Source of the DNA: Polynucleobacter sp.
GTDB taxonomy: Bacteria > Pseudomonadota > Gammaproteobacteria > Burkholderiales > Burkholderiaceae
Assembly (NCBI GenBank): GCA_030696845.1
Contig: JAUYRJ010000057.1
Span: 1-64,000, forward strand
Reading direction: 5' to 3'
DNA length: 64,000 bases
The position numbers and the translations under genes are program-made. A model generated the notes under the pieces. That model saw nothing but the letters and a program-made list of their open reading frames with translations. It was not told the origin of the DNA and ran no database searches. This document shows positions 5,389 to 52,289 of this stretch, piece after piece. Numbering within the stretch: the first letter of the stretch is position 1; every line of letters starts with the position of its first letter.

Positions 5389-6300
5389 ATGAATAAAAAT
5401 GTAATTAAGGCAGTAGTTCTAACGGTGGCATTGACATTCTCATCGATTGGATACGTTGATGCCAAGCGGATGGGTGGTGGAAAGAGTTTTGGTCGCACCG
5501 CGCCAGTGCAAAAACAGGCTCAGCCAGCCCCGGTGCAAAAACCGGCTCAGCAAGCTCAGTCCGCTGCACCTGCGGCCAGCCCTGCAGCGGCTGCTCCGAA
5601 GCGTTCTGGCTTTGGCGGCATGCTTGGTGGTTTGGCGGCCGGCTTAGGCATCGCTTATTTGTTATCCCATTTTGGCTTAGGTGAGGCTGCTGCCTCCCTG
5701 TTTACAGGTCTTTTAATGGCCTTGGCCGCCGGCTTGATTTTGATGTTTATTCTCAAGCGTTTTATGCCTTCCCTGTCCGGTGCTGGGCGCGCTAACCCTT
5801 CAGCTGCAGGTAACGGCATGCAACGTACCCACCTGGATCAGAGCGCACGTCAAGAGCCGGCCTATACTCCTGCCGCAACTGCCTTTGGCGGCGTTGCAGC
5901 ATCCGCACCAGTGGCTGAGAAGGCTCTGCCCCCCGGCTTTGATGAATACGCGTTTTTAGATAATGCAAAGCATTATTTTGTGAAGTTGCAAAAAGCATGG
6001 GACGACGGTGATTTGGATTCCTTACGGGAATTTGCTACCCCAGAAATGTTTAACACCCTGACTCAAGACCTCAATGCGCGAGCGGATAGTGCAAACCAGA
6101 CGGATGTGGTTACCTTGAACGCTGAACTCTTAGGTGTTGAAACGGGGCAAGACAGCTATTTGGCTAGCATCGAATTTACTGGCATGATTCGTGAACAAGT
6201 AGGCGCTCCCGCTACGCCATTTACTGAAATCTGGAATTTAAGCAAGCCAACCCACGGTTCTGGTGGTTGGGTTCTAGCCGGGATTCAGCAGTTGGTTTAA
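5389..6300 (+). CDS. Tim44-like domain protein with signal peptide and Q/P/A-rich linker
   Basis: N-terminal signal, KRMGGGKSFGR motif, hydrophobic segments, C-terminal Tim44-like region (NAKHYFVKLQKAWDDGDLDSLREFATPEMF). Confidence 0.85.
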   Translation: MNKNVIKAVVLTVALTFSSIGYVDAKRMGGGKSFGRTAPVQKQAQPAPVQKPAQQAQSAAPAASPAAAAPKRSGFGGMLGGLAAGLGIAYLLSHFGLGEAAASLFTGLLMALAAGLILMFILKRFMPSLSGAGRANPSAAGNGMQRTHLDQSARQEPAYTPAATAFGGVAASAPVAEKALPPGFDEYAFLDNAKHYFVKLQKAWDDGDLDSLREFATPEMFNTLTQDLNARADSANQTDVVTLNAELLGVETGQDSYLASIEFTGMIREQVGAPATPFTEIWNLSKPTHGSGGWVLAGIQQLV

Positions 6301-6319
6301 GCTTAGGCTTTCCCCACGG

Positions 6320-6346
6320 AAAAACCCGCACTTGTGCGGGTTTTTT
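6320..6346 (+). terminator. Rho-independent terminator
   Basis: AAAAACCCGCA CTTG TGCGGGTTTTTT hairpin plus T-tract directly downstream of the Tim44-like gene. Confidence 0.85.
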
Positions 6347-6352
6347 ACACCC

Positions 6353-6991
6353 ATGAACGCCGTAACCGCAAGACCGATCAGTAGCGCCGTAATCAGCCAT
6401 GGCATCAACCACGTGCTGGCTAGTGAGCCATGGGCTTTAGCCGAATTAGCAAAACATGCCGGTAAAGTCATTTCACTGGAAATGCCACTCGGTCAATTTG
6501 CATTTGGCATTACTGATGCCGGCCACTTAGAGGCGCATCAGGGCGTCAAAGAGTCTGATTCTGGAATTGAGCATCGAGTGGCTTTGACATTAACGATTTC
6601 TGCAAAGGCACTGTCTACTTTGCTTACCAGTAGCGGACCCCTGCGAGAAAACGCATTCAAATCCGTCACGATTGCGGGTGATGCGGATTTAGCGCAGCTT
6701 CTCGGTCGATTGGCCGGCCAGCTCCGCTGGGAGTATGAAGAAGATTTGTCTAAATTGATCGGTGATGCTCCAGCCCACTTCGCGGTAGCCCAAGGAAAAA
6801 AATTAGCCCATGCTGGAAAGGCGGCCGCTCAGGATTTGGTTGAAAATGCAGTCGAGTACCTCAGCGAAGAAAAGAAGATTTTATTGAATCAGCGCGATTT
6901 TTTAATCCACAAAAATCAATTGTTGGAATTACGCGATGCCGTGGAGCGTTTAGATAAGCGCATTGCTCTGTTACAGCAGAGGGGTACATAA
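6353..6991 (+). CDS. ubiJ: Ubiquinone biosynthesis accessory factor (SCP2-domain protein)
   Basis: SCP2-like protein immediately upstream of ubiB and downstream of ubi[22 protein letters not shown]. Confidence 0.8.
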
Positions 6992-6993
6992 GC

Positions 6994-8571
6994 ATGGCTC
7001 GTTTCGCACGTCTTTGCTTCATCTTTTTCACCGCATGGCGTTTTGGCTTGCTGTCTTTGCTGCGCGATAACGTCAAGCCTGGCATCAGGCGCATGCTCTT
7101 ATCCATTATCTGTTTTGCTTCTCCGAATTCTTTGCCGCGTGGAGTGCGTATTCGATTAACGCTGGAGGCTTTGGGTCCCATTTTTGTGAAGTTTGGTCAA
7201 GTACTCTCAACACGCCGCGATTTATTGCCAGACGATATTTCAGATGAGCTCGCGAAATTGCAAGATCAAGTGCCGCCCTTTTCCAATGAAGAGTCCCGCG
7301 CATTAATCGAGGCGGCGATGGGCCGAACGATCGAGGAAGTGTTTATCGAGTTCGATCCAACCCCAGTTGCAAGCGCATCTGTGGCGCAGGTCCATTTTGG
7401 CGCCTTACGCGCTACACCACAAAGGCCCGAGTGGGCAGGCCGTTTAGTAGCGGTTAAGGTATTGCGCCCTGGCATCTTGCCGGTGATTGAAGATGATTTG
7501 GCTTTGATGCACGACTTAGCCAAAATTGTCGAGAGGGTATCCGCCGATGGCAGACGCCTAAAGCCACGTGAAGTCGTAGCTGAATTCGATATTTATTTAC
7601 ACGATGAGCTCGATTTAATGCGCGAAGCAGCGAATGCAAGTCAGTTACGTCGTTATTTTATCGACTCCGATAAGTTGATGATTCCAGAAATGTATTGGGA
7701 TCTTTGTCATACCAACGTAATCGTTATGGAGCGCATGAATGGGATTTCCATCGGTCGCACCGATGAACTGCGCGCCGCCGGAGTGGACTTCAAAAAACTG
7801 GCAGCAGACGGTGTGGAAATTTTCTTTACTCAAGTCTTTCAGTATGGCTTTTTCCATGCCGACATGCATCCTGGAAACATCTTAATCAGCTTAGAGCCGG
7901 AGCGATTTGGTCGATTTATTTCCTTGGATTTTGGAATCGTTGGAGCGCTGAGCGAGTCCGATAAAAATTACTTGGCGCAAAACTTCTTGGCGTTTTTTAA
8001 TCGCAATTACCGGCGCGTCGCAGAGCTGCATATTGAATCTGGCTGGGTGCCGGCCAATACCCGGGTTGAGGAATTAGAGGGTGCGGTTCGCTCTGTCTGT
8101 GAGCCGTATTTTGATCGGCCCCTAAAGGAAATCTCCTTGGGCATTGTGTTGATGCGACTTTTTCAGACATCGCGGCGTTTCAAGGTGGAAATTCAACCGC
8201 AACTGACCTTACTCCAAAAAACACTCCTGAATGTAGAGGGGCTGGCACGGCAGCTGGATCCGGACTTGGATTTATGGAAAACCGCCAAGCCGATTTTAGA
8301 AAAGTGGGTCAGTCAGCAGCTGGGGTGGCGAGGTTTAGTCGAGGGGCTCAAGACAGAGGCCCCCAATTGGGCCAAAATTTTGCCAACCTTACCCCGCTTG
8401 ATAGCCGAAAACTTGGCTCAGAACAATAAAACGGAGCAAAGTGCTGAGTTGGAGCTGCTCAAAACCCTTTTGCGGGAAGAGCGCCAAACACGCCGCCTGA
8501 TAACAGGTGCTCTGCTCTTCGTGGGCGGCTTTTTAGCCGGCGCCTTGCTGATTTCCCTCGGTATTTACTGA
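6994..8571 (+). CDS. ubiB: Ubiquinone biosynthesis regulatory kinase-like protein
   Basis: ABC1/UbiB motifs ([28 protein letters not shown]); C-terminal TM helix. Confidence 0.95.
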
Positions 8572-13432: not shown

Positions 13433-14788
13433 ATGAGCTCAATAATGATCGATTCAAATGAGATACTGCAAAAAGCGTTTCAAGCCGCTTTAGTGGTAGC
13501 AGACCCAAAACACATTGTTCCGGAATACCTCGCCCGGATTTTTCCTAAAGGTTCTGAGCCTAAAGGCCGCTGTTTGGTGGTGGGTGCAGGAAAGGCCAGT
13601 GCTGCAATGGCAAGCGCTTTAGAGTCCTATGCAACAAAGCATTGGCCTGATGCGAAATTAGAGGGCATTGTGCTGACGCGCTACGGCCATGCTTCGCCCA
13701 CAAACCATATCGCGATTGTCGAGGCGGGGCACCCTGTGCCAGACCAAGCTGGTATGAATGGCGCAATCGAGATGATGCGTCTTGTCAATCAAATGAATCC
13801 CGGTGACATTTTGATTGCATTGGTATCGGGCGGCGGATCCAGTTTGCTGACCCTGCCGCAAGCCGGTATTTCGATTGACGATATGCGCCAAACAACCGAG
13901 GCCTTATTGCGTAGCGGCGCCCCAATTGAAGAAATGAATATTGTGCGTAAGCACCTGTCGGCGATTTTAGGCGGCAACCTTGCTCGGGCTGCGCTCGCGA
14001 GGGGGGCGCAAGTTGAGGCGCTATTGATTTCCGATGTGACGGGCGACTTGCCGGCTGATATTGCCAGTGGTCCTTGTGCGGCAGATTACTCAACTTACGA
14101 GAACGCGCGCGATATTTTGACCAAATACCGTTTGGGCTCAGATCAGATTCCCGCCAGTGTGTTGCATCATTTGGAGAAGGGTCTGCAAGGGGCCATTCCT
14201 GAAACACTCAAGGATGCTGATTTAGTAAACCAGCCGGTTCGCAATCATGTGATTGCGACAGCCCACCGAAGTTTAGAGTCGGCTGCCAAATGCGTCCGTG
14301 ATTTTGGTTACACCCCAATCATTTTGGGGGACACTATTACAGGCGAAGCAAAAGATGTTGCATTAGTGCATGCCGGCTTAGCACGAGAGGCTATAACGCA
14401 TCACCAATGGGGCGCATTGCCGATCGCACTGATTTCCGGTGGCGAATGCACGGTCACCTTACCGGCCGGGGTGAAGGGTCGCGGCGGTCGTTGCAGCGAG
14501 TTCTTACTTTCTCTTTTTGCGGCAACCAACGATTTACCGCAGATTGCGGCTTTGGCTGCCGACACCGATGGGATTGATGGCAGTGAAAAAAATGCAGGTG
14601 CTTGGTTTACATCTAAAACGCGTCAGCAAGCGCGAGAGCAAGATATGCGAGCTGGTCTTTACCTAGCGGCGCATGATTGTTATGGATTTTTTTCCGAGCT
14701 AGGCGCATTGGTTGAAACGGGCCCCACGCTGACTAATGTCAATGATTTTCGGATTATCTTGTTGCCTGCCGATTCTGGAGCGAAATGA
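13433..14788 (+). CDS. Glycerate 2-kinase (MOFRL/DUF4147 family)
   Basis: VVGAGKASAAMA, LVSGGGSSLLTLP, VKGRGGRCSEFLLSL motifs of GckA/TtuD. Confidence 0.9.
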   Translation: MSSIMIDSNEILQKAFQAALVVADPKHIVPEYLARIFPKGSEPKGRCLVVGAGKASAAMASALESYATKHWPDAKLEGIVLTRYGHASPTNHIAIVEAGHPVPDQAGMNGAIEMMRLVNQMNPGDILIALVSGGGSSLLTLPQAGISIDDMRQTTEALLRSGAPIEEMNIVRKHLSAILGGNLARAALARGAQVEALLISDVTGDLPADIASGPCAADYSTYENARDILTKYRLGSDQIPASVLHHLEKGLQGAIPETLKDADLVNQPVRNHVIATAHRSLESAAKCVRDFGYTPIILGDTITGEAKDVALVHAGLAREAITHHQWGALPIALISGGECTVTLPAGVKGRGGRCSEFLLSLFAATNDLPQIAALAADTDGIDGSEKNAGAWFTSKTRQQAREQDMRAGLYLAAHDCYGFFSELGALVETGPTLTNVNDFRIILLPADSGAK

Positions 14789-45959: not shown

Positions 45960-46277
45960 ATGAACTCACACATCCCGAGCGTTCTTTTGTTCAGCATGGC
46001 ATTTGTAGGCAGTCAAACAACGCTTGCAGCCCCCATTTACATCACAAACTATGCATCAGAAGCCAGTGCGAAGGTATTTGTCACGAAATACAAATCGGAA
46101 GCCAATTGCATTGTGTATGAGACTGCGTATCGCAGCGATATGGAGCCAGGTGTATGGTTTTTTACAAAATACAAGAGTGATGCGAGGGCATCCATCTATT
46201 ACACGCAGTACAAATCGGATGCCGATCTGATTGTGTATTTTACCAAGTACAAAAACGAGGCGCGTTGCCGCTACTAA
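45960..46277 (+). CDS. Small secreted repeat protein (DUF6150-like)
   Basis: 105 aa, signal peptide, repeated TKYKSEA/TKYKSDA/TQYKSDA/TKYKNEA units. Confidence 0.7.
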   Translation: MNSHIPSVLLFSMAFVGSQTTLAAPIYITNYASEASAKVFVTKYKSEANCIVYETAYRSDMEPGVWFFTKYKSDARASIYYTQYKSDADLIVYFTKYKNEARCRY

Positions 46278-46518: not shown

Positions 46519-47904
46519 TCAAAAGCTACCAAATAGAGAGGCCAGGATAATGATGCAAACCAGTGTGATCAATGGAAAAACCAAGGTCACCATTGCGATA
46601 TAGCGATACGCACTGCGGTGCGTTAGATTGCAAATGCCCAGTAGCGTAATTACAGCGCCATTGTGGGGTAATGTATCCATGCAGCCCGATGCCATCACTG
46701 CAATGCGGTGCAAGAGCTCCGGGCTAATGCCTAGTGCTGTTGCTTTAGCGAGGTAATCCGCTCCTAGCGTTTGTAAGGCAATCGACAGGCCGCCGGATGC
46801 GGAGCCAGTAATACCCGCTAATACATTCACAGCGACTGCTTCACTAATCAGTGGATTGCCGGGTGCAATGCTCAGCACAAACTCTCGAATCATTAAGAAG
46901 CCGGATAGGCTAGCAATAACGGAGCCGTAACCTACTTCAGAAGCGGTATTTAAGATGGGCAGCATGGACCCCACAGAGCCCTGATTGACCGCTTCATTGG
47001 CTGTGGTGCAGTTCCTAGAGCGCAGAACTTGAATGGTGTAGATATACACAATACCAATAGAAAGGGCGATGATGATTGCCCAAATGCCCGTAAGGGATGC
47101 CAACGAGCTGATACCAAAACGATCGGTATTAATGAAGTCGGGTTGCCATTGGGGCAAAACCCACTTTGCCATAAGAAGGTTGGTCAATCCCATTAGCGCA
47201 ATGGGAATCAGGGCGCTAGCAAAAGGAATGGATGCGGAGTGAATATGCTCACTGGGAGGTTGCGGTGATGCAATCTGTACCGCCGGCAAAAAACGACGTT
47301 GCCGATTAAGCCACAGTACACCAAGAGTCAGCATCATGCCGCTCGCAATCAGACCTAGTCCAGGGGCGGCAAAGGAATCTGTACCAAAGAAAGGGCTGGG
47401 AATGGAATTTTGCACCGAGGGTGTACCTGGTAGCGCAGTCATGGTGAAGGTAAATGCGCCGAGGGCAATAGCCCCTGGCAACAGGTTCAATGAAATCGCA
47501 GAGCGCTCAAATAGGGACTTGCCAATGGGATACATCATGAAGGCAACCACAAACAAGGAGACGCCACCGTAGGTCAAAATGGCGCAAGCTAAAACAACTG
47601 CGAATAATGCGCGCTCAGCCCCCAGTTTGGCAGTGATGCCATTTGCAATAGCGAGAGCATAGCCTGATGACTCCATCAATTTCCCAAAAATAGAGCCCAG
47701 CAAGAAGAGCGGAAAATATTGAATCAAATAGCCGCCCATCGCTTTCATAAACACTTGCGTATAGATGGGAAGGATTTCAGTGAGATTGCCACTGAGCACC
47801 ACTGCGAGTAGCGCCATCGTGGGGGCCAAAATTAATACGCTCATACCGCGATAGGCAAGGTACATGAGTAAGCCAAGGGAAACCAAAATCGAAATTAATT
47901 CCAT
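46519..47904 (-). CDS. GntP family permease
   Basis: LFLLGSIFGKLMESSGYALAIA; LTYGGVSLFVVAF; GAFTFTMTALPGTPSVQNSIPSPFFGT. Confidence 0.85.
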   Translation of the reverse strand: MELISILVSLGLLMYLAYRGMSVLILAPTMALLAVVLSGNLTEILPIYTQVFMKAMGGYLIQYFPLFLLGSIFGKLMESSGYALAIANGITAKLGAERALFAVVLACAILTYGGVSLFVVAFMMYPIGKSLFERSAISLNLLPGAIALGAFTFTMTALPGTPSVQNSIPSPFFGTDSFAAPGLGLIASGMMLTLGVLWLNRQRRFLPAVQIASPQPPSEHIHSASIPFASALIPIALMGLTNLLMAKWVLPQWQPDFINTDRFGISSLASLTGIWAIIIALSIGIVYIYTIQVLRSRNCTTANEAVNQGSVGSMLPILNTASEVGYGSVIASLSGFLMIREFVLSIAPGNPLISEAVAVNVLAGITGSASGGLSIALQTLGADYLAKATALGISPELLHRIAVMASGCMDTLPHNGAVITLLGICNLTHRSAYRYIAMVTLVFPLITLVCIIILASLFGSF

Positions 47905-48111
47905 ATGACGCAGTTCCTATCGCAAATAATATGAAAAAGTATTTAAAAAAATTAGGCTAAATCATCAGTGCATTGCAAAGAAGTATAGTTAGTAAGCTAG
48001 CCCACTTTTCCTATATGGAATAACACTTTTAGCACTTTTTAGGCCATGCAAACCATAGCTTGATCTCAAAAAGCTATAATGGCATTTCATTCATCTCCTA
48101 AGGAGAAGATC

Positions 48112-49650
48112 ATGATCGCACTTGCGCAGCGTCTGTGGAGAAAGTTAAAGCACTTTTTTCGAACGCAATCTCAGCTGGCATTTAAAACCGTCGTTGAGCC
48201 CCATTCAAAAAGTAGTAAGAGCGGTAAGAGTAGTAAGGGCGGCTCGGTAGCGGATACTTTGGTCAGCGTCATTATTCCCGCATTGAATGAAGAAAAAGCC
48301 ATTGCATCGGTAGTGCAATATGCACTGCGCGATCCCTTGACGGGTGAAGTGATTGTGGTCGATGATTGCTCAACCGATCAAACGGCGGCCATTGCACGCA
48401 GCGCAGGCGCCAAAGTGATTACAAGTTCCATGCTGGGTAAGGGCGCATCGATGCTCGATGGTGTTGCCGCGGCAAGCCATGAGTGGATTGTGTTTCTGGA
48501 TGGCGACTTATCAGGACTGCAAGACCATATTATTTCGGACATGGTAGCCCCACTCGCCCAAGATAAGGCGGACTTTGTAAAGGCGCGCTTTGGTCGTGGC
48601 GGTGGCCGGGTGACCGAGTTGACCGCTAAGCCCATGCTCAAAGTATTTTTTCCAGAGCTGGCTCACATTGCGCAACCTCTAGGCGGCATTATTGCTGCGA
48701 AGGCGTCATTGCTGAAGCACTTGAGTTTTGAGTCGGGGTATGGAGTGGATATAGGTTTACTCATTGACGCATTTAGAAAGGGCGCGCGAATTGCTGAGGT
48801 CGATATTGGATCTTTGGAGCACGATAGCCAGTCCTTATTGGATTTGACGAGTATGGCCAATGAGGTGGCGCGTGTCATACACCATTATTCGCGTGAAGCG
48901 GGGCGTTTGCATGTGGAGCAAATCACTGAAATGTATGAGGCCCAGCGTCAGGCAACCGCATCATTTGACTACATTATCAATCGTCGCAAAAACCGCAATA
49001 AACTAGTGCTGCTGGACATGGATGGCACCATTACACCTAATCGATTCGTGGTGGAATTAGCCAAACATACGCATACGGAAGAAACACTAGCTGCTTTATT
49101 GGATAATCCGTTAAACGACGCGGGAACACGGAGTAAGCGCATAGCAGAGATCTTTCAATTTACTCACCGTAAACAGTTTGAGAAAGTCGCCATGTCGATG
49201 GAGATCAGACCGGCTGTGATTGAGTTTGTAAATCAAATGCGGCGCGATGGCTTTATGGTGGGGATTGTGTCTGATAGTTATTTCATTGCCGCTGAAATTA
49301 TGCGAAAACGCATTTTTGCAGACTTTGCCATCGCACACACCTTGCATTTTCAAAATGACATCTGCACTGGTGAACTCAAAATCAATTCAGATTTTTTACC
49401 AAACGGTAAATTAGTGGAAGACTTAATTTGTAAAAGTAATGTGTTGCAGCAATTTTTATCCACCAAAATTAAGCCGCCCTTCAAAGAGGTATGGGCCATT
49501 GGCGATAACGTAAATGACCTGCATATGCTGAACCTAGCGGATAAGGCCTTTGTGATTGAACCCAAAACGCCCGTTTTTCAAAATCACAAACACATCACTG
49601 AAATTCAGTCGTTTGCAGAGTTATTAACTGCAGATGCGGCTGTACATTAA
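48112..49650 (+). CDS. Fusion protein: GpgS-like (GT81-type) glycosyltransferase plus SerB-like HAD phosphatase; predicted bifunctional glucosyl-3-phosphoglycerate synthase/phosphatase
   Basis: VSVIIPALNEEKAIASVV, GKGASMLDGVAAASHEWIVFLDGDL, GGGRVTELTAKPMLKVFFPELAHIAQPLGG, SGYGVDIGLLIDAF; then HAD motifs LLDMDGTITPN, IVSDSYF, AIGDNVNDLHML; SD aaggag before ATG 48112. Confidence 0.8.
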   Translation: MIALAQRLWRKLKHFFRTQSQLAFKTVVEPHSKSSKSGKSSKGGSVADTLVSVIIPALNEEKAIASVVQYALRDPLTGEVIVVDDCSTDQTAAIARSAGAKVITSSMLGKGASMLDGVAAASHEWIVFLDGDLSGLQDHIISDMVAPLAQDKADFVKARFGRGGGRVTELTAKPMLKVFFPELAHIAQPLGGIIAAKASLLKHLSFESGYGVDIGLLIDAFRKGARIAEVDIGSLEHDSQSLLDLTSMANEVARVIHHYSREAGRLHVEQITEMYEAQRQATASFDYIINRRKNRNKLVLLDMDGTITPNRFVVELAKHTHTEETLAALLDNPLNDAGTRSKRIAEIFQFTHRKQFEKVAMSMEIRPAVIEFVNQMRRDGFMVGIVSDSYFIAAEIMRKRIFADFAIAHTLHFQNDICTGELKINSDFLPNGKLVEDLICKSNVLQQFLSTKIKPPFKEVWAIGDNVNDLHMLNLADKAFVIEPKTPVFQNHKHITEIQSFAELLTADAAVH

Positions 49651-51029: not shown

Positions 51030-52289
51030 CTAAATAAAGCGGAAGGCAATGATGGCGATGATGGTTGGCGGTAGTGCACACAAGAATAAATACAAGGGGC
51101 TGATCGCTCCTTCATCAAAGCTGGGTTTCAGAATAGAGAAGCCGGCTGGATTGGGTGCGTTCGCAATGACCGTTAAACCACCACCAGTGAGGGCGCCCGC
51201 AACTAAGGAGTATTTAAACTCATCAGAAAGACCATCCACCAGTGATCCTAAATAGGTGAGCGCTGCATTATCGGTAATCGCAGTGAGAACCGTTGCGCCG
51301 TAATACACGGATGTTGAATCAAGACCCACTAGGAGGGATTGCAGCCACCATTTTTGTTGGCCGCCCAATACCACGAGACCAGCCAGGAAGAATGCCACTA
51401 GTAAGCTCTCTCGAATGATTAACTTATTTTGGTAGCGCGCATAGGCGGCGGTGTAACCGACAAAAAATAAGAATAAGCCCATGAATAAAACCGAGTGGTG
51501 TACAGAAATCACTACACCCACTAAAAATGCCAAGTGAATCGCAATAACACCTAATGGAATGGCATCAATCTTCTTTTCGTTTGGTTGAATGTCAAATGAA
51601 TTGAGTTCTTTAAAAAAGACAAACGCAAGTAAGGTGGAGTTTGTAGCGACAGCTAATGCGGAGCGCCAGCCAAAATTCTCCAGCATAAAAAAGAGATCCC
51701 ACTTCCAGGTACTTGCGACCATCAAAATGGGAGGAGCAGCGTAGGGGGTTAAGGCGCCACCAATCGAGATGTTGACAAACAAAACGGCGAGGGCCGCATA
51801 CATCAGTTTGGGTGAAATCTTCTTGGAGAAATAGTAATCACGTAGCAGTAAAGCGGCCACCGTCATGGCGGCTGGCTCTGTAATGAATGAGCCCAGTAAA
51901 GGAACTAAGGTTAGGGTGACCCATAAAAACCCCACCGATTTTTTGACTGGTAGCAAAGCAGTCACCCGCAACACCAAGAAAAGACAAAATTCCAATACCG
52001 GCTTACTCGCAGCGATGATCATGATCACGAACACGAAGAGCGGTTCGGTAAAGTTCAGTTTTTCTAGGTATGCAATAGTTGCCTCTTGTCCGGTGTAGAC
52101 AAAAAAGAATGACACCAGAACCATGGCCCAAAAGCCAAATACCACCTCAACCTCGCCAAGCAAATGCCAAATGCCGGAATGGTTTGGGTATTTGTGGGCT
52201 AGGTGCTCAAAAAACTTCGTTGAGAATGTATGAATTACCGCTAAGGCAAAGATGGCGCTACTGACAATATTGATAGTGGTTGGGGTCAT
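51030..52289 (-). CDS. Putative Na+/H+ antiporter
   Basis: Polytopic; LGSFITEPAAMTVAALLLRDYYF; TAITDNAALTYLGSLVDGLSDEFKYSLVAGALTGGGLTVIANAPNPAG. Confidence 0.85.
   Translation of the reverse strand: MTPTTINIVSSAIFALAVIHTFSTKFFEHLAHKYPNHSGIWHLLGEVEVVFGFWAMVLVSFFFVYTGQEATIAYLEKLNFTEPLFVFVIMIIAASKPVLEFCLFLVLRVTALLPVKKSVGFLWVTLTLVPLLGSFITEPAAMTVAALLLRDYYFSKKISPKLMYAALAVLFVNISIGGALTPYAAPPILMVASTWKWDLFFMLENFGWRSALAVATNSTLLAFVFFKELNSFDIQPNEKKIDAIPLGVIAIHLAFLVGVVISVHHSVLFMGLFLFFVGYTAAYARYQNKLIIRESLLVAFFLAGLVVLGGQQKWWLQSLLVGLDSTSVYYGATVLTAITDNAALTYLGSLVDGLSDEFKYSLVAGALTGGGLTVIANAPNPAGFSILKPSFDEGAISPLYLFLCALPPTIIAIIAFRFI

Follow-up and report, generated by a model that had tools for sequence, protein, structure and literature searches.

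A single gene in the 64,000-nucleotide stretch of Polynucleobacter sp. DNA analyzed here (the window) encodes a GT-A glycosyltransferase domain and a HAD-IB phosphatase domain in one protein of 512 amino acids (48112-49650, + strand). The finding is real and goes beyond ordinary annotation. We propose that the fusion is probably a bifunctional synthase/phosphatase, which would add a hexose to 3-phosphoglycerate (3-PG) and then dephosphorylate the intermediate, yielding the compatible solute glucosylglycerate; that the product is a glycosylglycerate of some kind is appreciably more probable. In the known pathway, glucosylglycerate synthesis takes two separate proteins, GpgS and GpgP, the mycobacterial GpgP being Rv2419c. 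According to the proposed mechanism, the GT-A half would be a retaining transferase that links the hexose to the 2-hydroxyl of 3-phospho-D-glycerate; this hexose is most likely glucose, supplied as UDP- or ADP-glucose. Removal of the 3-phosphate by the HAD-IB half would follow, via an aspartyl-phosphate on D302, and cells facing osmotic or ion stress would use the resulting glucosylglycerate as an anionic compatible solute.

The reading frame ends with the stop at 49650 and can begin at ATG 48079 or at ATG 48112. The second ATG is closely preceded by a perfect AAGGAG ribosome site, which makes 48112 the better start. The features of the locus are as follows.

46519..47904, - strand: GntP-like permease, below the Pfam cut-off; divergent neighbor, given as context (Pfam, neighborhood).
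48099..48104, + strand: AAGGAG ribosome-binding site of the fusion gene, read by eye, give or take a base or two.
48112..49650, + strand: fused glycosyltransferase/HAD-IB phosphatase gene, 512 aa, start 48112 taken over 48079.
48112..48249, + strand: N-terminal helix (residues 2-25) and low-confidence linker (residues 24-46), from AF2 pLDDT and alignment.
48250..48954, + strand: GpgS-like GT-A domain, residues ~47-281, from profile, fold, and alignment; E60, D84/D85, K110, D130-G-D132, G165-R-V-T-E169, QPLGG188-192, Y210, D213, H237, M248.
48979..49593, + strand: HAD-IB, phosphoserine-phosphatase-like domain, residues about 295-490, from profile and alignment; nucleophile D302, acid/base D304, S387, K441, D465/D469.
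51030..52289, - strand: PF07399 putative Na+/H+ antiporter, two genes downstream of the fusion, given as context.

The AlphaFold2 model of the protein, built on 30 homologues, has a mean pLDDT of 83, falling below 50 in linker residues 24-46; the alignment shows the helix and linker region (48112..48249) to be divergent among homologues. The source genome is 1.95 Mb and 99% complete. The nearest named relatives of the gene are from Polynucleobacter (81% identity), and it is 82% identical to a copy in a metagenome-assembled genome (MAG) named only Burkholderiaceae. The one-polypeptide architecture claimed in the original prediction was borne out, as 47 loci in GTDB genomes match across both halves and all 30 aligned homologues carry both domains; the fusion is therefore not a sequencing artefact.

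By profile, PDB sequence, fold, and residues, the N-terminal half is most similar to GpgS, as had been predicted, and every glycosyltransferase motif then quoted is present. In the NCBIfam profile search, the GpgS model NF010496 matched residues 47-281 with 197 bits. Because this score lies below the curated cut-off of 262 bits, we did not file the domain as a member of NF010496, and we place it as a GpgS-like sister group outside that equivalog. Mycobacterial GpgS was the best match in the PDB sequence search (E ~8e-31; profile E 1e-37), followed by Rubrobacter MpgS. With the AF2 model as the Foldseek query, ranks 1-41 were all taken by mycobacterial GpgS or Rubrobacter MpgS (32-38% identity), with phosphoserine phosphatases ranking after them. 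Sequence identity reached 41% over 234 columns with an unannotated actinobacterial GpgS-type protein and ~40% with a protein annotated as GpgS.

The same half also gave a generic GT2 Pfam match, and AglJ was the next-best other glycosyltransferase model (76 bits), which would suit a membrane or cell-wall GT2 enzyme, such as a polyprenyl- or dolichyl-phosphate sugar synthase, joined to an unrelated phosphatase. We regard this explanation as extremely unlikely, given that the models for PpgS and for polyprenyl- and dolichyl-phosphate transferases scored at most 46 bits against 197 for GpgS, that the GpgS-type GGRVTEL and QPLGG motifs are present, and that GpgS and MpgS came first in the fold search. 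Clustering with dolichyl/polyprenyl GT2 enzymes, named at the outset as one observation that would speak against a GpgS-like assignment, did not occur in the profile and fold searches. Trees of the GT domains with GT2 outgroups had outgroup branches of 5-10 changes/site, which attracted each other, and these trees were set aside.

Residue conservation was assessed in 62 sequences, comprising the 47 loci and 15 further regions from genome surveys, minus one HAD-only locus (L103), plus the window; some of these regions overlap, L037 and L091 having the same GT domain sequence, as do L039 and L090. Residue correspondences to GpgS and to phosphoserine phosphatase (PSP) were taken from sequence alignments. 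In M. tuberculosis GpgS, Glu54 contacts the ribose, a conserved network of ion pairs joins Lys114, Asp134, and Glu232, the metal is bound by Asp136, probably with His258, and the 3-PG carboxylate is held by Val186/Thr187 (PMC2581804). The donor and metal residues Glu54, Lys114, Asp134-x-Asp136, and His258 have equivalents in E60, K110, D130-x-D132, and H237, and the carboxylate site Val186-Thr187, which follows Arg185, corresponds to R166-V167-T168. E60, K110, D130, R166, V167, T168, QPLGG, and D213 are kept in all 62 fused sequences, D132 in 61, and H237 in 57.

Several positions around the acceptor differ from GpgS. Ser81 is replaced by Asp, the β6-α6 loop, a proposed contact of the 3-PG phosphate, has lost length, and in the β8-α9 loop R256/N260/R261 have become L235/S239/Q240. 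The phosphate site, in which the proposed loop is thus shortened and Asn260/Arg261 are changed, is disordered in the reference structure. Loss of 3-PG-binding residues had been set as a check on the original prediction; the carboxylate side is invariant, and the phosphate-side loops are changed. Because the grip residues are kept, the acceptor is expected to have a carboxylate next to the hydroxyl; the differences in the phosphate-side loops, Glu232, and Ser81 mean that the exact acceptor and sugar are not readable from the sequence.

The sugar could be mannose, with the same two-step chemistry on 3-PG using GDP-mannose and giving mannosylglycerate. Rubrobacter MpgS almost equals GpgS in fold and score, the fused enzyme MgsD yields mannosylglycerate, and GpgS Glu232 is an Asp (D213) in 62/62 sequences, as in R. 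marinus mannosylglycerate synthase (MgS). We nevertheless consider mannose unlikely: the top matches are all glucosyl enzymes, no GDP-mannose genes were seen adjoining the fusion, and Tyr210 matches Tyr229 of GpgS in 58/62 sequences, this residue being Trp in MgS. Transfer of glucose remains our preferred reading.

The C-terminal half contains the DMDGT, SDS, and GDNVND motifs noted originally, and it exceeded the cut-off of the HAD-IB model TIGR01488 (49.6 bits; cut-off 45). Its score against the SerB model TIGR00338 was 62.6 bits, far under the cut-off of 144. Alignment to M. jannaschii PSP showed that D302, D304, S387, K441, D465, and D469 are kept, and the HAD half of the window protein looks functional from these residues. 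The proposed intermediate, 2-O-glucosyl-3-phosphoglycerate, is phosphoserine with an O-glycosyl group in place of the C2 amine. In PSP this amine is bound by Glu20 (PMC6321591), a position occupied by Arg311 in the window protein and by Arg in 56/62 sequences. Such a swap is expected if C2 bears an O-glucosyl group instead of NH3+, and Arg311 would fit a substrate glycosylated at C2; R340 is perhaps the equivalent of PSP Arg56. The earlier designation of this half as SerB-like is thus supported; it is not SerB itself, on both the profile score and the Glu20 position. We likewise rejected a housekeeping SerB role, since the source genome carries a separate true SerB (206 bits) and has no TIGR01486 match, hence no MPGP-type phosphatase by this model. 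The suggestion that a SerB-like, non-MPGP partner represents a distinct solution is a fair one.

Catalytic residues of the HAD domain are broken in 9 of the 62 homologues, all with an intact GT domain. Five have lost the nucleophile (L025, L040, L092, L100, and L104) and four are broken at other catalytic positions (L010, L023, L030, and L099); the C-terminus of L023 may be frame-broken or mis-assembled. Dephosphorylation by the HAD domain would therefore not always be needed, and the phosphatase step appears to be done elsewhere or skipped in some lineages. We count these broken domains, together with the altered phosphate-side loops and the sub-cut-off GpgS score, against the proposed two-step reading. 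The broken domains would also agree with a glycosyltransferase whose phosphorylated glycoside is the end product or a precursor, the HAD domain being mainly structural or regulatory and other phosphatases acting on the product, as would the faster evolution of the HAD domain (mean identity 52%, versus 70% for the GT domain). This explanation is very unlikely in our view, because the catalytic residues checked are kept in the window protein and in 53/62 sequences, which would hardly be expected without function. An active phosphatase half, as in the proposed two-step synthase, is the interpretation we retain for the window protein.

Two genomes carry two copies of the fusion. L008 and L040 lie on the same contig of one MAG (JAHBZT010000001.1); the HAD nucleophile is intact in L008 and changed from Asp to Ser in L040, which suggests specialization or decay following duplication. 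The second such genome is MAG-160, with L015 and L038.

The 47 loci found by sequence search of GTDB genomes belong to Polynucleobacter, Limnohabitans, Rubrivivax and relatives, Zwartia, and Methylomonas, so that carriers occur sporadically in Burkholderiales, neighboring lineages, and Methylomonas. The family survey found the fusion in 4/250 genomes, plus the L103 remnant, and the order survey in 13/349 genomes and 5/148 genera. Besides the window, the phylum sample (n = 399) gave no GpgS match above ~82 bits, and none of the family, order, and phylum surveys contained a split or unfused relative of this GT type. Given these low counts and the lack of an unfused relative in the surveys, the fusion is an established, rare, and patchy family of a single architecture. 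In a plasmid search, all GpgS matches were unfused actinobacterial proteins and the remaining matches were generic GT2 proteins. The L103 remnant (G021 C7, about 6160-7047) is HAD-only, its GT half missing. Almost identical fusions occur in MAGs named Rubrivivax (L017) and Silanimonas (L018), the latter probably mis-binned.

Neighboring genes were called with a simple GC-frame ORF caller, clustered, and checked against Pfam on representatives; the counts are raw, from crude gene calls, and include related genomes that do not count as independent. With these provisos, a MarR regulator was found near the fusion at 23 loci, an SSS symporter at 16, a ClC channel at 14, a Gfo/Idh/MocA dehydrogenase at 13, a PF07399 Na+/H+ antiporter at 8 (in several families, the window among them), a Na/Pi transporter at 6, NhaD at 3, and MscS at 2. 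Several neighbors share the strand of the fusion and either overlap it or are separated from it by 0-17 nt, and their arrangements vary among lineages, which together argues for functional coupling. Because many copies lie within or next to an operon containing MarR, ClC, Na+/H+ antiporter, MscS, or SSS genes, the neighborhoods support a role in ion or osmotic stress, and the tie to osmotic stress guessed originally now has genomic backing. The window copy has PF07399 nearby and no MarR or ClC neighbor, which counts against the proposed reading; its GntP-like permease is kept at two other Polynucleobacter loci and lies a few genes off in Zwartia. Concerning the EctR/CosR idea, no close homologue of the linked MarR regulator was found near ectC in eight genomes.

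At nine loci (L007, L012, L015, L020, L022, L033, L043, L045, and L047), the SSS symporter follows the fusion by 0-60 nt and is itself followed by the dehydrogenase, forming a conserved three-gene operon. The dehydrogenase, usually behind the symporter at its 13 loci, is distantly like inositol 2-dehydrogenase. This raises the idea of a different phosphorylated acceptor, either a hydroxy acid or a polyol, for instance an inositol phosphate or another sugar-acid phosphate, with the HAD domain dephosphorylating the glycoside, and the phosphate-side loops unlike those of GpgS would be in keeping with it. We judge it improbable, however, as G-R-V-T, which grips the carboxylate, and QPLGG do not vary and the SSS/Gfo-Idh layout occurs in a single group of loci, ion-channel or antiporter neighbors, or none recognized, being found at the rest. 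3-PG is thus still the acceptor that we favor.

MgsD and GgpPS already set a precedent for the principle of a one-protein synthase/phosphatase. MgsD of Dehalococcoides (NF011072/PRK14502) likewise combines the two activities and leads to a glycosylglycerate, but it makes mannosyl-3-phosphoglycerate and its phosphatase is of the MPGP type, unlike the HAD-IB domain here. NF011072 was not among the best 25 of the 42 NCBIfam matches of the window protein, and the lack of a TIGR01486 match in the genome speaks against membership in that type. GgpPS of Marinobacter and Stenotrophomonas, which makes glucosylglycerol, is also a fused compatible-solute synthase and phosphatase, but with the phosphatase N-terminal; its synthase belongs to GT20 and uses glycerol-3-phosphate as the acceptor. 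Actinobacterial GpgS (GT81, NF010496; M. tuberculosis Rv1208, M. hassiacum) shares with the fusion the GT-A fold (36-41% identity), the donor and metal residues, and the Val/Thr of the 3-PG carboxylate site, whereas it is a standalone enzyme with a separate phosphatase GpgP (Rv2419c), has longer β6-α6 and nucleotide-side loops, and bears the Arg256/Asn260/Arg261 that the fusion has lost. The GpgS of Methanococcoides and gammaproteobacteria (NF040724, about 412 aa) has the same proposed reaction but is a distant glycosyltransferase (76 bits to NF010496) encoded by a separate gene, and its partner is a HAD-IIB MPGP phosphatase rather than a HAD-IB protein. As a positive control, the gammaproteobacterial NF040724 gene was found adjoining a TIGR01486 (MPGP) phosphatase gene and an alpha-amylase-family (GH13-like) gene. 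SerB and M. jannaschii PSP resemble the C-terminal half in HAD-IB fold and catalytic motifs and differ in the amine-binding Glu20, which is Arg311 in the fusion. A search of mostly open-access papers found none on a GpgS-phosphatase fusion, and the pairing of GpgS with HAD-IB appears undescribed in the papers searched.

If the proposed reaction is correct, the fusion would allow a single enzyme to make glucosylglycerate, and its HAD-IB domain would be a third phosphatase type for this pathway, after the MPGP-type HAD-IIB enzymes and mycobacterial Rv2419c. In a survey of phototroph genomes, freshwater Betaproteobacteria, a Polynucleobacter and Rubrivivax included, were reported to lack both betaine and ectoine synthesis (PMC7824335), and we found no ectoine synthase in the source genome. 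The fusion is a specific candidate osmolyte enzyme for Polynucleobacter, Limnohabitans, Rubrivivax-type bacteria, and Methylomonas. It could account for the way in which salt is tolerated by bacteria that lack the usual osmoprotectant pathways. More tentatively, it is plausible, though somewhat less likely than not, that freshwater Burkholderiales without betaine or ectoine synthesis use a single-protein glucosylglycerate synthase/phosphatase as their osmolyte system, often MarR-linked and coupled to ClC, MscS, or Na+ transport, the HAD-IB domain having arisen from a phosphoserine phosphatase scaffold by the Glu to Arg change.

Two further genes of the window deserve mention. The gene at 13433-14788 (+ strand) encodes DUF4147/MOFRL domains of the glycerate 2-kinase type; a link between this kinase and the fusion had been suggested, and we rejected it as a pathway partner because it lies 33 kb away. 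At 45960-46277 (+ strand), the window encodes a secreted-looking protein of 105 aa (DUF6150) with repeated TKYKSDA-like motifs, and a DUF6150 repeat protein is also found upstream in the Polynucleobacter-type loci L003 and L013.
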